DNA of 61,463 nt from Nitrososphaerota archaeon (lineage in GTDB: Archaea > Thermoproteota > Nitrososphaeria > Nitrososphaerales > Nitrosopumilaceae). The notes below the pieces were generated by a model. That model was not told the origin of the DNA, made no database searches, and was given only the letters and a program-made list of their open reading frames with translations. The translations under genes were made by a program, and so were the position numbers. Of the stretch, positions 51,987-58,789 are shown piece by piece. How positions within the stretch are numbered: position 1 is the first letter of the stretch; the number at the start of each line of letters is the position of its first letter. Where the stretch lies: assembly GCA_021325595.1 (NCBI GenBank), contig JAJPGX010000025.1:1-61463 (forward strand). Reading direction: 5' to 3'.

Positions 51987-53141
51987 GTGGAAAAGGTTTG
52001 TGTTATCGGTGCTGGAAGCACGAAATATGGAAAATTAGAAGATAGTATTACTGACATATCCTTACAGGCATCCGTTGACGCTATTGAAAGTGCTGGAATA
52101 CAACCTAAAGAGATTCAAGCAGGTTACATCTCAAACGTCTTTGGTATAGCAGACAAACAAGTCCATCTTGGACCCGTTATAATGAGTGACCTGGGAATTC
52201 CAGAAGTACCATCACTTTCGATTGAATCTGCATGTGGTAGTGGTTCAGTATCATTTAGAGAAGCATATGCAAATGTAGCTGCTGGATTTTATGATGTTGT
52301 ATTAGCAACTGGAGTTGAGAAAGTAACTCATACTGGTACAGAATGGACTACAACATATTTTTCATATTGTTCTGATTTCTTTTATGAGGGAGGTGCTGGC
52401 GCGTCATTTCCAGGATTATTTGCATCTATGGCAAGAGCTTATCTTGCTGAATTCAAAGCAACTGAAGAAGATCTTGCGATGGTTGCAGTAAAAAATCACG
52501 ACAACGGTTTTCTAAATCCAAAAGCACATCTAAGAAAAAAAATTACAATAGATGACGTTTTAAAATCTGCAGTAGTTGCAAGTCCATTAAAGCTATATGA
52601 TTGCTGTCCTTTCTCTGATGGAGCAAGTGCTGTAATATTATGTAATGAAAAATTTGCTAAAGCTCATACAAAAAATTATGTTGAGGTAATAGGATCAGGA
52701 AGGGGTGGATCACCTGCTGCACTCCAAGGAAGAGAACACATTACTACTATACCAAGTACAAAACTTGCTGCACAAGCAGCATATAAAATGGCAGGAATAA
52801 CCCCAAAAGATATAGACTTCGCAGAGGTTCATGATTGTTTTACAATTGCAGAATTAGTAGATACAGAAGATCTTGGATTTTTTGAAAAAGGCACAGCTGT
52901 TCAAGCAGTAAGAGAAGGAAGAACTAAACTAAACAGTGATATCTCAATCAATCCTTCAGGCGGGCTCAAATCCAAAGGACATCCAATTGGTGCTACTGGA
53001 ATAGGACAAGTTGTAGAAGTTTTTGATCAACTTACAGGAAAAGCTGGAGAAAGAACAGTAAAGGATGCTAGAATTGGACTCACGCATAACTTTGGTGCAA
53101 CAGGTGCCAGTTGTGCAGTTCACATATTCAAAAGTGTATAA
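51987..53141 (+). CDS. Thiolase (acetyl-CoA acetyltransferase, SCP-x type)
   Basis: 384-residue thiolase. GTG 51987 fits a TATA-like TTTTTATATGG about 26 bases upstream. Catalytic Cys in IESACGSGSVSF, His in FAEVHDCFTIAE, GGLKSKGHPIGATG, and a final GASCAVHIF motif. It makes or splits acetoacetyl-CoA. In this lineage candidate roles are the last step of the 3-hydroxypropionate/4-hydroxybutyrate carbon-fixation cycle or the first step of the mevalonate route. Its last eight bases overlap the DUF35 partner. Confidence 0.9.
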   Translation: MEKVCVIGAGSTKYGKLEDSITDISLQASVDAIESAGIQPKEIQAGYISNVFGIADKQVHLGPVIMSDLGIPEVPSLSIESACGSGSVSFREAYANVAAGFYDVVLATGVEKVTHTGTEWTTTYFSYCSDFFYEGGAGASFPGLFASMARAYLAEFKATEEDLAMVAVKNHDNGFLNPKAHLRKKITIDDVLKSAVVASPLKLYDCCPFSDGASAVILCNEKFAKAHTKNYVEVIGSGRGGSPAALQGREHITTIPSTKLAAQAAYKMAGITPKDIDFAEVHDCFTIAELVDTEDLGFFEKGTAVQAVREGRTKLNSDISINPSGGLKSKGHPIGATGIGQVVEVFDQLTGKAGERTVKDARIGLTHNFGATGASCAVHIFKSV

Positions 53142-53508
53142 GTTGTTATCCAAAGAAGAATTCATCAATAATGCAAAAGCAGGTAAAGTTCTAGCTAGAA
53201 AATGCACAAAATGCGGACATCTTCATTTAGTCACTACATATTTTTGCCAAAATTGTGGAAATAAATCGTTTGAAAATACTATAATTGATGGTAAAGGGTC
53301 AGTTGTTACCTATACCATAATAACAGTGCCTCCAGACGGATATGAAAAATATGTACCGTACGCTTGGGTGGTAATGAACCTAGATAATTCCGAACTACGA
53401 ATTTCAGGTTTTATGGCAAATATTAATTCTCCAGCAGACCTTCCTCTTGGAACTAGGGTGAAGATCACAGGTTATGATGAACGTGGAATAATACTTGAAA
53501 AACAGTAA
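53134..53508 (+). CDS. DUF35 OB-fold/zinc-ribbon protein, thiolase partner
   Basis: 124 residues. Rubredoxin-like zinc ribbon CTKCGHLHLVTTYFCQNC (about 25-43) followed by an OB-fold (GKGSVVTYTIITVPPDGYE...). In other archaea such proteins scaffold thiolase and HMG-CoA synthase. GTG 53134 overlaps the thiolase stop by eight bases (GTGTATAA); TTG 53143 is an alternative. The paired order with the thiolase strongly suggests a complex. Confidence 0.88.
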   Translation: MYKLLSKEEFINNAKAGKVLARKCTKCGHLHLVTTYFCQNCGNKSFENTIIDGKGSVVTYTIITVPPDGYEKYVPYAWVVMNLDNSELRISGFMANINSPADLPLGTRVKITGYDERGIILEKQ

Positions 53509-53579
53509 ATCAAATTTATTAAACTGATTAAAAAAAATCAAAAAATCTCTTTTATAATATTTGTACAAAATACTTCATA

Positions 53580-53741
53580 ATGTCAGTAGATGTTATATGC
53601 AGCAGATGTGGATCTAAAATTGCCAGTATGCGTATGCTAAAACCAATAAAAGATGTCATGAGGCCATACAACAGTAAATGTCCTTCTTGTGGACAAACGT
53701 TATCTGGATCAGAATTTACCGTTGACGTGCAGAAAAACTGA
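53580..53741 (+). CDS. 53-residue zinc-ribbon protein
   Basis: ATG 53580 to TGA: MSVDVICSRCGSKIASMRMLKP, then CPSCGQTLSG. Four cysteines in two C-x2-C pairs about 24 residues apart fit a zinc ribbon. A TATA-like TTTATAAT at 53551-53558 lies about 26 bases before the ATG, so this small gene has a credible promoter of its own. It is 64 bases upstream of the NrdD-like regulator gene. It may bind nucleic acid or protein; its role is unknown. Confidence 0.75.
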   Translation: MSVDVICSRCGSKIASMRMLKPIKDVMRPYNSKCPSCGQTLSGSEFTVDVQKN

Positions 53742-53805
53742 TCTAAAAAGATTGCGTATGGATCAAGTCATAAATCTTATTTACTGATACTATCTAGACA
53801 AGCCT

Positions 53806-55902
53806 ATGGAACTTAGTGAGGACTTTGGGGAGCAGAAGCGGGGAGGAATTTTACAATCAGCATCAAAACGTGTAAGAATGATCTTTTCTGTAATGGCAAG
53901 CCCAAACAGAATTGATATATTACGTATTCTAAATTCAAAAGGCCCACTTACATATTCAGAGCTAAAGTCCCTTGCTGGATTTAAATCAAAAAAGGAAAGT
54001 GGTAAGTTTGCCTATCACTTGAGAAAATTGTTACGACAATCTCTAGTCGCACTAAACAAATCTGAGAGACGATATACGATTACCAATCTAGGAAAGCTTG
54101 TTCTAAGTCTTGCAAGGCAGATCGAGGAACGTTCCATCATAGAAAGCGGTAAGATGTACGTACGAACATCGCATGAATCTATTGAGGAATTTAACTCACA
54201 TAAGATTATCCAATCCCTTGTAAGGGAAGGAAGCCTTCCACTTGAGTTAGCCCAGAAGATAACAGAAGAAGTTGAAAATAGAATATACAAATTCCAGACT
54301 TCTTACCTTACATCATCACTCATTCGTGAGATGGTAAACTCTGTGCTTCTAGAACAAGGACATGAGGATTATAGGCATAAACTTGCAAGATTTGGCCTTC
54401 CTGGGTATGATATACATGAAATGCTTACAAATGTAGACGGTATACACAACGGCGTAGAAGGACTCCTATTTAAGACAGGCCAAAAAGTATTCGGTGAATA
54501 TCTAGTCTTAAACTCTCTACCAAAAGATGTTGCAGATTCTCATCTATCCGGAGACATTCACATAACAAACACAGGGCTGTGGTCTCTATTACCAGATACC
54601 ATATTTGTAAACATAAAGGAACTTGTAGAAGATGGAGTAGATCTAAGAGGCAAGTTCCTTGGGGTAACACGTACTCCTCCACCCAACTCTCTGGAAGATC
54701 TTGTTACATCGTTATCCCTACTCACATCACTTCTTATCAAAGAAGCTTCACAAGAAGTAGTAATAGACGGATTGGTCGCTGCATTGCAAAAATATTCAAA
54801 GAACCTATCTGAAGTTGAAGAAAAAATTGCAAATTGCTTTACAAAGATCTCTACTGCACCAATATATAGCAAAAGTGGTACATTAGCTTCTTTTAGAATA
54901 TCTATTGCTACAGAACCAAAAATTGTTGGAACAATATTAAATGCATACAAAAAATATGTAAAATCAACCCCTATGCCATCAATTGGACTAATAATAGATT
55001 ATGAAAAAGCCAAGATAAGCGACTTTTCAGAAACTCTATCTGACATAATTGCTCTTGGAGGTCGAGTGATGTTCTCTAAAGGCTTGGTTTCTAGTAAAGG
55101 TTTGGCAAAAGCAGACGCGAAGAATACCAACATAACATCAATTAATCTACAGTCTTTGTCAATCAATATGCCACGACTAGCATTTGAATCCAACAAAGAT
55201 GAGACATACTTTAGAGCAAGACTTGCACTATTGATGAAACCTGCATTATCTGCAATGTCTCTGAGGAAAAAAGAAATCTCAGATCTTACTAGGCGCGGAT
55301 TGAATCCTATTCTTGCAAACAATACTCAATATATGCAAAAAGGATCAGTAACACTAGTAGTTAATCTGATAGGGCTAAAAGAAGCAGTTTATGGTATATT
55401 AGGTTATGAAAATAACAAGGCCGGACAGGAGATATTATCTAAAGTCATTAATACCGCAATAGAAGTTGCAGCCAAGAAAGGAAAGGAAATGGGAGACAAC
55501 GTAACCGTCTCTATGACTGAAAGCGATGCAGCATCACGATTTTCGGCTTTGGACGGCGAAAAATACGGTAAAATGTCTATCCATCAGCACCTAGAAGGCG
55601 AATCATACTCACAAGGGGTGGTCATTGATGCCTCTGAAATAGAGGGAATGAATACCAAGAACGAAAAGATAGTGGAATCCAACCAATTTTCCAAGATCCT
55701 CAATGGAGGATTATTGGTTCAACTAAAGATACCTGATAACATGGACTCTGCTGGAATCAAGAAGACAATAGAAAAGGCAGGAGATCTCTTAGGAACGTTT
55801 AGGCCAATCAAGAAGGTTCCTATATGTAGCAACTGCGGTCTGAAGGAAGAAAAAATATCAGAAAAATGCCCTGTCTGTAAGTCACCATACATTCTAGCAT
55901 AA
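53806..55902 (+). CDS. Winged-helix + ATP-cone + inactive NrdD-like fusion protein (candidate RNR regulator)
   Basis: 698 residues. Residues about 20-105 form an ArsR-type winged helix (VMASPNRIDILRILNSKGPLTYSELKSLAGF). Residues about 116-196 form an ATP-cone (KMYVRTSHESIEEFNSHKIIQSLVREG). Residues about 205-670 align with anaerobic ribonucleotide reductase NrdD (FGEYLVLNSLPKDVADSHLSGDIHI; TSINLQSLSINMPRLAFE). The end has a four-Cys zinc site (C674, C677, C688, C691). The glycyl-radical segment is missing, as the chain stops seven residues after the last Cys. The only other Cys is C344, outside the expected catalytic loop. Reductase activity is therefore unlikely; DNA-binding control by dNTPs is inferred. 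Upstream of nrdJ. Confidence 0.82.
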   Translation: MELSEDFGEQKRGGILQSASKRVRMIFSVMASPNRIDILRILNSKGPLTYSELKSLAGFKSKKESGKFAYHLRKLLRQSLVALNKSERRYTITNLGKLVLSLARQIEERSIIESGKMYVRTSHESIEEFNSHKIIQSLVREGSLPLELAQKITEEVENRIYKFQTSYLTSSLIREMVNSVLLEQGHEDYRHKLARFGLPGYDIHEMLTNVDGIHNGVEGLLFKTGQKVFGEYLVLNSLPKDVADSHLSGDIHITNTGLWSLLPDTIFVNIKELVEDGVDLRGKFLGVTRTPPPNSLEDLVTSLSLLTSLLIKEASQEVVIDGLVAALQKYSKNLSEVEEKIANCFTKISTAPIYSKSGTLASFRISIATEPKIVGTILNAYKKYVKSTPMPSIGLIIDYEKAKISDFSETLSDIIALGGRVMFSKGLVSSKGLAKADAKNTNITSINLQSLSINMPRLAFESNKDETYFRARLALLMKPALSAMSLRKKEISDLTRRGLNPILANNTQYMQKGSVTLVVNLIGLKEAVYGILGYENNKAGQEILSKVINTAIEVAAKKGKEMGDNVTVSMTESDAASRFSALDGEKYGKMSIHQHLEGESYSQGVVIDASEIEGMNTKNEKIVESNQFSKILNGGLLVQLKIPDNMDSAGIKKTIEKAGDLLGTFRPIKKVPICSNCGLKEEKISEKCPVCKSPYILA

Positions 55903-56021
55903 CTCTCACCGTAGGAAACAGTAAAATTTTTTTAGAAAATTTTTGACATAATCTAAGAACTAATTCAATTTTCTAGATGAATTTTTTTAAGGTTTAATTT
56001 AGTCTTATGCGATCTAGTACT

Positions 56022-56135
56022 ATGAAAATTGTAACGGTGTCAACAAAATTGATCCAAAGCTTAGCTTTAGAAAATAATTTTTTGCCGGAGTGTTTAATTA
56101 ACTCTCATTTGATAGGGTTTCGGGGAGTAAATTGA
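56022..56135 (+). CDS. Possible 37-residue leader ORF overlapping the nrdJ start
   Basis: In the 229-bp gap before nrdJ an ORF starts at ATG 56022 (or in-frame ATG 56007) and ends at TGA 56133-56135, overlapping the nrdJ TTG start by two bases (TTGA). A TATA-like TTTAATTT at 55993-56000 is centred about 26 bases before ATG 56022. The product begins MKIVTVSTKLIQSLALENNF and has no recognisable family. It could couple translation to nrdJ or be a chance frame, since nrdJ also has its own TATA-like TTTAATTA at 56093-56100 and a CGGGGAG ribosome site. The rest of the gap contains T-runs and an AAAGC/GCTTT dyad (56056-56068). Confidence 0.35.
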   Translation: MKIVTVSTKLIQSLALENNFLPECLINSHLIGFRGVN

Positions 56136-58789
56136 CTGATTTTTCACAAATAGAGAACTCGATCATTCAGGTTAAGAAGCGTGATGGTCGAGTATCAAAT
56201 TTCCAGAAGGACAAAATTTCAAATGCTATCTTTAAAGCACTTGTAGCATGTGGCAGACCTGATCACGGACTTGGGAATAAGCTTGCTGATCATGTTATTG
56301 AAAAACTAGTTAATCATGGATATTCCTCTTCTGAAGCACCAAGTGTAGAAGACATACAAGATATGGTGGAGTCTACATTAATAGAAGAAGGATTAAGTGA
56401 GATAGCCAAAGCCTACATTCTCTACAGACACGAACGTAGACGAGTAAGAGACGAAAAAATGAAAGTTCTAGAATCAAAGAGTCTTGATAGCGTATCCAAG
56501 AAGTTTGATTTGAACTGCCTTAGGGTGCTCGCATCAAGATATCTGCTTAGAAATAACAAAGGACAGATAATAGAAAGCCCAACTGAAATGTTTGAAAGAG
56601 TTGCTGTCCTAGTAGGACTTGGCGATGTTTTAAAAGATCCAGCTATATTTCAGGTTGAAGGCGGATACTCACAAAATATAGAAGATGCTGCAAAATATCT
56701 AGACAAACTTGATGACTTTAACTACAAATTCAAAGTTGGCAAGTACTATCTTAACAAATATCATTTTAGATCACTGATAAATCACTACATCGACTTGGCA
56801 AAGCATGGCCAGATGAAAGTAGGAATAAAAGACGTTCTTACTATGCTGGCAGCAAACAAGTTCGAACAATATGCAGAAAGAATCACAGAATACTTTGACC
56901 TTATGGTTTCACAAGACTTTCTGCCTAATTCACCAACAATGATGAATGCAGGTGCAAGATTAGGTCAGCTTTCTGCCTGTTTTGTTCTTGCAATGCCAGA
57001 TGATATGGAAAAAATAATGAAATCCTCATCCGACGCTGCACTCATATTCAAATCAGGAGGAGGAGTTGGCATCAACTACTCGGAACTAAGACAAGAGGGA
57101 GATGCCGTAGCTTCAACCTCTGGAGTAGCCTCAGGACCTGTATCCTTTATGAATATAATCAACACCGTAACTGAAGTAGTAAAGCAAGGTGGTAAACGAA
57201 GAGGTGCCAACATGGGAATAATCGAAGCTTGGCACCCAGATGTTGAGAAATTCATTACAGCAAAAACAAAACCAGGAGTTTTGGAGAACTTTAATGTAAG
57301 TGTGGGGGTGTGGGAGGACTTTTGGGATGCACTTGTAAACTCAAATGATGGAAAATATACTCTATTAAGTCCACGCGACAAAGTTCCAATAAGAGAAGTA
57401 AATGCTCATCACCTAATTGATTTGATTGCACTTTCAGCTTGGAAGAGCGCCGAACCTGGATTGATATTTTTTGATATCATAAATAAATACAATGTATTTG
57501 CAAAAGCAAGAGGAGGACCTCTTCGTGCAACAAATCCATGTGGAGAACAAAGTCTCTATCCATACGAATCATGCAATCTTGGATCAATTAACCTTGCCAA
57601 CTTTGTAAAACGAAAAGCAGATGGTCAGTATGAATTTGATTGGCAAAGATATGAAGAGACAATCAGAAAGACAACCAGGTTCCTTGACAATGTCATCGAT
57701 GTAAACACATACCCAATACCAGAAATTGACAAAGCATCTAAGGATTCCAGAAGAATTGGACTTGGAGTAATGGGTGTAGCAGATCTATTATTCAAATTGA
57801 GAATTCCATACAATTCCCAAGAAGGATTTGAATTCCAAGAAAAGCTTTCAGAGGCACTAACCTATTATTCCATGGAAGAAAGTATCGCACTTGCAAAGAC
57901 ACGTGGTCAATTCCCATTATGTTCCAAAACTGAATTTCCCGAAGGAAAAATTCCAATTGCTGGATATTATGAAAAATCAAAAAGTGCTCATACTTATGAC
58001 TGGGACGCACTGATTTCCAAGATTCAAAAGCACGGCATTAGAAACGTACTAACAACAACAGTAGCACCAACAGGTACTCTATCCATGATTGCAGACTGTT
58101 CCAACGGAATGGAACCAATATTTGCTCTTGTATTTGAGAAAAGAGTAACAGTAGGTAGATTCTTCTATACAAACAAAATCTTTGAAGCAGTTCTAAAAGA
58201 ACATGGTCTCTACAATGATCAGATATTAGAAAAGATTGCAAATAACTATGGTTCTGTAAAGGGAATTCCAGAAATTCCTGAATGGATGCAAAAGATCTTT
58301 GTTACTGCTATGGATATCCACTGGGCTGACCACTTGCTAGCTCAAGGAGTTTGGCAAAAATGGATAGGCAACGCAATTGCAAAGACTATCAACATGCCAA
58401 ACGATGTATCATCTGATGATGTAAAGGCCGCTTACCTGTTAGCGCATGAACTTGGCCTCAAAGGAATCACCGTATTCAGAGACGGCTCAAGACATGAACA
58501 AGTGTTACACATGACAGGAAACAATGTACAAAAGAACTTCCAGGTAACACCAAGCACGTATGTAACAGATTACATATCAAAAAACATCACAAATGCATAC
58601 CTGAAAACGCAGATAGAAAGAGCACTTCAGATAAAGATTCCAGATGCTAATGTAACTGCACCCGCACCAGCACTAACACCAGAACAAATGGAAGAAAGAT
58701 TATGCCCTACATGCAAGAACAATCTTGTGTTTGCAGAAGGATGTAGTGTCTGTATTGAATGCGGTTATAGTGGTTGTACATCTGGATAG
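56132..58789 (+). CDS. nrdJ: Adenosylcobalamin-dependent (class II) ribonucleotide reductase
   Basis: Reduces ribonucleotides to deoxyribonucleotides through an adenosylcobalamin-derived thiyl radical; oxygen-independent. 885 residues: ATP-cone (about 10-105), reductase barrel with redox cysteine C283 (LSACFVLAMPD), NPCGEQ (468-473; C470 radical Cys, E472), TVAPTGTLSMIADCSNG, and a C-terminal zinc/redox-tail region CPTCKN...CIECGYSGCTSG (C874, C877, C882). All catalytic residues are present. TTG start with a GGGGAG ribosome site. No intein. Cobalamin is made by this lineage, which fits use of this class. Confidence 0.96.
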   Translation: MTDFSQIENSIIQVKKRDGRVSNFQKDKISNAIFKALVACGRPDHGLGNKLADHVIEKLVNHGYSSSEAPSVEDIQDMVESTLIEEGLSEIAKAYILYRHERRRVRDEKMKVLESKSLDSVSKKFDLNCLRVLASRYLLRNNKGQIIESPTEMFERVAVLVGLGDVLKDPAIFQVEGGYSQNIEDAAKYLDKLDDFNYKFKVGKYYLNKYHFRSLINHYIDLAKHGQMKVGIKDVLTMLAANKFEQYAERITEYFDLMVSQDFLPNSPTMMNAGARLGQLSACFVLAMPDDMEKIMKSSSDAALIFKSGGGVGINYSELRQEGDAVASTSGVASGPVSFMNIINTVTEVVKQGGKRRGANMGIIEAWHPDVEKFITAKTKPGVLENFNVSVGVWEDFWDALVNSNDGKYTLLSPRDKVPIREVNAHHLIDLIALSAWKSAEPGLIFFDIINKYNVFAKARGGPLRATNPCGEQSLYPYESCNLGSINLANFVKRKADGQYEFDWQRYEETIRKTTRFLDNVIDVNTYPIPEIDKASKDSRRIGLGVMGVADLLFKLRIPYNSQEGFEFQEKLSEALTYYSMEESIALAKTRGQFPLCSKTEFPEGKIPIAGYYEKSKSAHTYDWDALISKIQKHGIRNVLTTTVAPTGTLSMIADCSNGMEPIFALVFEKRVTVGRFFYTNKIFEAVLKEHGLYNDQILEKIANNYGSVKGIPEIPEWMQKIFVTAMDIHWADHLLAQGVWQKWIGNAIAKTINMPNDVSSDDVKAAYLLAHELGLKGITVFRDGSRHEQVLHMTGNNVQKNFQVTPSTYVTDYISKNITNAYLKTQIERALQIKIPDANVTAPAPALTPEQMEERLCPTCKNNLVFAEGCSVCIECGYSGCTSG

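Follow-up and report, generated by a model that had tools for sequence, protein, structure and literature searches.

Directly upstream of the gene for a class II ribonucleotide reductase (RNR) in a Nitrososphaerota archaeon lies an open reading frame whose product resembles the class III, anaerobic reductase NrdD with an additional winged helix. Is this protein an enzyme, or has it become a nucleotide sensor that regulates the reductase gene beside it? An earlier note, made from the letters of the window (the whole stretch of 61,463 nucleotides analysed here), took the latter view, proposing a catalytically dead NrdD that would act as a dNTP-sensing transcription factor for nrdJ.

Architecture and fold of the NrdD-like protein

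The reading frame, at 53806–55902 on the forward strand (as are all window features below), is correct in its coordinates and strand, and encodes a protein of 698 aa that we characterized by an ORF check, Pfam, TIGRFAM and an AlphaFold2 model. The three domains that the earlier note had placed in a single chain, namely a winged helix, an ATP-cone and an NrdD-like barrel, all score above their Pfam cut-offs. The winged-helix DNA-binding domain (aa 26–100; 53881–54105), delineated by Pfam, Foldseek and its identity across ammonia-oxidizing archaea (AOA), matches both DUF7347 (41.0 bits, cut-off 27.6, E = 2.3e-10) and HTH_20 (32.6 bits, cut-off 27, E = 7.8e-8). It is succeeded by an ATP-cone (aa 117–189; 54154–54372; PF03477, E = 2.6e-9), an NrdD-type barrel without catalytic cysteines (54454–55812; PF13597) and a four-Cys zinc knuckle (55825–55878), just after which the frame stops. 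The NRDD match (aa 414–693, plus a weak N-terminal stretch) has an E-value of 2.5e-26 and is therefore no chance match; the NrdD equivalog model TIGR02487 gives 86 bits (cut-off 326).

Structure prediction, which had been put forward as a check, recovered the NrdD fold together with the winged helix. The AlphaFold2 model, for which the input was the window protein and 54 named homologues, has a mean pLDDT of 83.6 and a pTM of 0.71. In Foldseek searches its best PDB matches are all NrdDs (9d3x, E = 2.4e-22; T. maritima 4col, TM 0.65 by target), and its N-terminus retrieves weaker matches to ArsR-type winged helices (CadC 3f72, and 3cuo); the orientation of the domains in the model is uncertain, since the whole-chain TM values are moderate. 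Both the NrdD fold and the four-Cys zinc knuckle are present in the protein. The ATP-cone is likewise present, but VRTS replaces the canonical VxKRDG. An alignment of archaeal NrdD cones places VRTS in some active archaeal enzymes as well, so it has the appearance of an archaeal variant and not of a product of decay, which weakens the idea that it marks a dead cone.

Loss of radical chemistry and spread of the family

To survey the active site, 147 homologues drawn from Nitrososphaerales, Bathyarchaeia and their relatives were aligned with 23 active NrdDs. The glycyl-radical motif, R[VIT]xGY, occurs in all 23 active NrdDs and in none of the 147 homologues, the window protein included. The latter has no glycyl-radical tail, as had been claimed, because its chain stops 7 residues past the last zinc cysteine. 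Numbered from the ATG, its cysteines are at positions 344, 674, 677, 688 and 691; the last four constitute the zinc site, correctly described as kept (C674, C677, C688, C691), and the finger-loop segment, when aligned with NrdDs, indeed holds no cysteine. The sole cysteine outside the zinc knuckle, C344, is not conserved among the homologues, and the chain has no RVxGY. Across the family, the finger-loop cysteine (23/23 active NrdDs) is lost in most homologues, with one kept in 18 of the 97 non-AOA members and a cysteine near the finger position in 3 of the 39 AOA homologues; the first-strand cysteine (the Cys175 column; again 23/23 active NrdDs) is found in none of the 39 AOA homologues, 38 of which have threonine.

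The LNxPR motif is retained among the homologues, as are the four zinc cysteines in their long forms. A general loss of the zinc site is rejected for these long forms, the site being lost in G108, G082 and most short homologues. Shorter homologues of 550–718 aa (L045, L047–L049, L067, L068 and L070) also lack the zinc knuckle, one step further in the decay. The substrate-phosphate motif HxHD (PMC11226230) is degraded to HxTN or HxSN in AOA homologues; because it is not conserved, the proposal that the nucleotide-binding parts are kept holds for the ATP-cone, possibly for the specificity site too, and fails for the substrate motif. The entire glycyl-radical tail is gone in AOA homologues. In Bathyarchaeia it often persists with the glycine replaced (SRVSAKHLPAPF versus SRVVGYLRPVDQ), and in some homologues the surviving tail has alanine for glycine (SRVSAKH versus SRVVGYL), in which the decay can still be read.

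The activase NrdG (TIGR02491) was found over cut-off in none of 31 genomes, the window's own included, and the weak matches to this model are probably other radical-SAM proteins. No second copy or active NrdD turned up in the same genome, where the window protein is the only NRDD protein. The claim that catalysis is lost and the fold retained is supported by both the missing glycyl motif in the 147 homologues and the NrdD fold of the model; judging by their residues, the window protein and its AOA homologues are catalytically dead derivatives of NrdD.

In a tree of the cone and barrel, built by a quick method with the winged helix cut off and no root inferred, 32 regulators lie on one side of a branch and 23 active NrdDs on the opposite side (SH-aLRT 99). 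Matches were found in 210 of 300 genomes of the phylum, although some weak ones may be NrdD or other proteins; within Nitrososphaerales the gene is present in 183 of 201 genomes and in 126 of the 130 that are near-complete. A scan of named genomes yielded mostly Bathyarchaeota; Hecatellales also appear, as do two MAGs whose labels, Njordarchaeum and Freyarchaeota, may reflect misbinning. The HTH-fused dead NrdD family is far older than the Nitrososphaerales lineage. The viral contigs searched gave no relative of the protein, and viral carriage of the gene is rejected on that ground. A literature search, mostly without subscription papers or preprints, found no description of an HTH-fused or dead NrdD.

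Genomic neighborhoods, conserved DNA and competing explanations

The presumed target, nrdJ (56132–58789; TIGR02504, 731 bits, over cut-off), encodes a class II, B12-dependent RNR of 885 aa with its own canonical KRDG ATP-cone; its start lies on the same strand, 229 bp downstream of the candidate regulator, which is thus directly upstream of it as the earlier note had stated. The genome also encodes a second class II RNR, of 602 aa and without an ATP-cone (contig C34, L154:3621–5429, reverse strand).

Conserved and nearly genome-unique DNA elements are found at the promoters of both genes. A search of AOA genomes recovered TCAYAARTCTTAWTTA (53768–53783) exactly upstream of the regulator gene in 12 of 15 genomes and with at most one mismatch in the other three, there being only 2 exact matches elsewhere. 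It overlaps a TATA-like box (the promoter was read by eye) and may therefore be the regulator gene's own core promoter; its near-uniqueness within each genome makes a general promoter motif unlikely, and we regard the element as a candidate autoregulatory operator or special promoter. Upstream of nrdJ, AOA column conservation delineated a 38-bp element (56018–56055; consensus TATGAAnTTCATAGTAnCGGTGTnAA...TTGA, here TACTATGAAAATTGTAACGGTGTCAACAAAATTGATCC), followed about 37 bp later by a TATA-like box at about 56092–56100 (again by eye). Its core, allowing up to 3 mismatches, has a single match in its own genome, at nrdJ, and the element is a candidate nrdJ operator. Sequence conservation ahead of the regulator gene recurs in another family of the order (TTTACAAAGTAGTTTTAAT). 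A single motif for both promoters is not established, an ATRARnYTYAT-like dyad being visible by eye in several AOA. A riboswitch or other known RNA is rejected for 53400–56400, where an Rfam search gave no match up to E = 1.

A zinc-ribbon microprotein of 53 aa (MSVDVICSRCGSKI...CPSCGQTLSGSEFTVDVQKN; 53580–53741), encoded directly upstream of the regulator and conserved in other AOA genera, could be its partner. Thiolase and DUF35/OB-fold genes upstream of the regulator (51987–53508) recur in another family of the order, and a DUF35 gene also lies ahead of it in a Freyarchaeota-labelled contig; the loci concerned are L143:5491–5919, L175 and L177.

A survey of nrdJ neighborhoods, as had been suggested, reveals that the linkage is conserved in 79 of the 81 Nitrososphaerales genomes checked. 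Of 39 AOA genomes, 38 have nrdJ as the next gene in the same orientation, the exception (G082) keeping the gene in another setting without nrdJ beside it; 42 additional genomes of the order give 41 cases of linkage, with L203 as the exception. L177 was rejected as an exception, its nrdJ frame overlapping the end of the regulator gene. Among the 60 named non-AOA loci with enough sequence to be counted, an RNR lies downstream on the same strand in 10 (eight active NrdDs and two NrdJs) and is absent within 2 kb downstream in 50; linkage is also seen at L043, L061 and L065 (NrdD) and L057 (NrdJ). Whole-genome searches of 28 non-AOA genomes indicate that most of the unlinked ones have RNR genes elsewhere. 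The link to nrdJ is hence conserved across Nitrososphaerales but is not specific to nrdJ, as active nrdD genes also follow the regulator. With about 1500 genes per genome, we ourselves estimate the probability of chance adjacency at well under 1%; association with RNRs of two classes is therefore not accidental, though it is not universal.

At four loci a glutaredoxin-like gene is situated between the candidate regulator and the RNR (e.g., L098:4190–4507 and L099:4480–4866); its occurrence between a dead regulator and an active nrdD suggests a regulator–redoxin–reductase cluster. In Bathyarchaeia, aspartate carbamoyltransferase (pyrB) is a convergent neighbor in about 38, approximately half, of the named loci (e.g., L074:4271–5188) and is sometimes followed by pyrI; these pyrB neighbors form one protein cluster, of which one member was checked by Pfam.

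Such neighbors, and the position of the gene away from any RNR in most Bathyarchaeia, would be in keeping with a nucleotide-responsive factor that has a wider or different main target, such as pyrimidine synthesis or replication, with RNR as one case of several. However, convergent neighbors share no promoter with the regulator gene, the linkage to nrdJ recurs in nearly all Nitrososphaerales genomes checked, and the core of the nrdJ element occurs in the window's genome only at nrdJ; we accordingly hold this explanation to be unlikely.

Comparison of the window with seven other AOA loci brings out what selection has preserved: the winged helix is 100% identical at the amino acid level, the cone 91–100% and the barrel 64–85%, such that winged helices are identical even between genera whose barrels are only 64% identical. 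Synonymous sites in these comparisons are at or near saturation (dS > 1 is rough), and dN/dS is about 0.03–0.07. Purifying selection is strongest in the winged helix, whose constraint is extreme. An unchanging DNA-reading domain alongside unchanging DNA would be expected of a regulator, though it is no proof of which protein binds there. These observations bear on a second alternative, a pseudo-subunit that pairs with NrdJ or NrdD and relays nucleotide signals, with a winged helix used for protein contacts or of minor importance. The fold and ATP-cone common to RNRs and the adjacency to RNR genes of two classes agree with such a partner, but its most constrained part is a winged helix of DNA-binding type above the Pfam cut-off, the intergenic DNA contains conserved elements, the NrdJ of AOA is already equipped with an ATP-cone, and one kind of protein would need to fit the strongly differing bodies of NrdJ and NrdD; this makes it quite improbable in our estimation. 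That the protein is still an active enzyme using an unusual radical site, or a functionless relic in decay, we consider scarcely credible: the finger-position cysteine of 18/97 non-AOA members is its one attraction, set against a glycyl motif in no member and no NrdG over cut-off in relatives on the first count, and the low dN/dS and presence in 126/130 near-complete genomes on the second.

Proposed mechanism and relation to known regulators

In conclusion, we favor as likely a one-component, nucleotide-sensing transcription factor for RNR genes that arose from NrdD. The observations behind it are the architecture, the loss of catalytic residues, the single branch, the constraint, the RNR linkage, the lack of NrdR and NrdG, and the cis elements; DNA binding, the elements bound, the nucleotide ligand and the choice between repression and activation are what we infer. 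Of the earlier proposal of a dNTP-sensing factor for nrdJ, the linkage to RNR and the distinctness from NrdR survive, and the restriction to nrdJ does not.

The bacterial RNR repressor NrdR (TIGR00244), like the candidate, couples an ATP-cone to a DNA-binding domain, and both accompany RNR genes of different classes. However, NrdR is short (a model of 147 positions) with a zinc ribbon directly before the ATP-cone, whereas the candidate has a winged helix as its DNA-binding domain and a whole dead NrdD after the cone. TIGR00244 does not match the window protein, no NrdR was found over cut-off in 41 genomes, and NrdR is described as rare in archaea (PMC9110341). With NrdD (PF13597) the candidate shares the ATP-cone, barrel, zinc knuckle, LNxPR and common ancestry, but it lacks the glycyl radical site, the radical cysteines and NrdG, has a degraded HxHD and has an added winged helix. 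ArsR-type/HTH_20 regulators (e.g., CadC) have a comparable N-terminal winged helix, which in the candidate is fused to an RNR-derived body of ~600 aa. By function, this would be an RNR-specific ATP-cone regulator, a known kind; by descent, it is a new family.

Briefly, we advance the following mechanism. Duplication of an archaeal NrdD would have yielded a copy that acquired an ArsR-like winged helix at its N-terminus and whose radical chemistry disappeared. Like NrdD itself, the protein would dimerize through its NrdD-derived body. Binding of ATP or dATP by the ATP-cone, and perhaps of dNTPs at the specificity site, would alter the arrangement of the dimer or a larger oligomer and thereby reposition the winged helices on the DNA at its own promoter and that of nrdJ. 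High dATP would then lead to less RNR synthesis and low dATP to more. Speaking against this proposal are the unlinked majority of non-AOA loci, G082, the cone without KRDG and the two elements that are not clearly one motif. Marine AOA exposed to hydrogen peroxide reportedly have RNR in high relative abundance (PMC6593220); hence, RNR levels may be regulated. Since the dead NrdD copy of ammonia oxidizers is nearly always beside a working RNR gene, it probably serves as an archaeal switch for that gene, responsive to nucleotide levels.

More broadly, we lean somewhat toward an undescribed class of transcription factor in which a whole catalytic subunit of RNR, through its own allosteric machinery, senses the dNTP pool. 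On this slightly favored reading it would be the general regulator of RNR, in the place of NrdR, across a large part of the archaea: most Nitrososphaerales and Bathyarchaeia, and perhaps some Asgard lineages. The annotation of the family as 'anaerobic ribonucleotide reductase' in aerobic ammonia oxidizers would be wrong. The protein offers a concrete, testable candidate for control of dNTP supply at the gene level in archaea, where NrdR is described as rare (PMC9110341), and its family occurs in archaea that rank among the most abundant on Earth. If the proposal is true, an essential metabolic enzyme has come to sense its own product, and intermediate stages, such as the Gly-to-Ala change in the surviving tail, can still be seen in living lineages.
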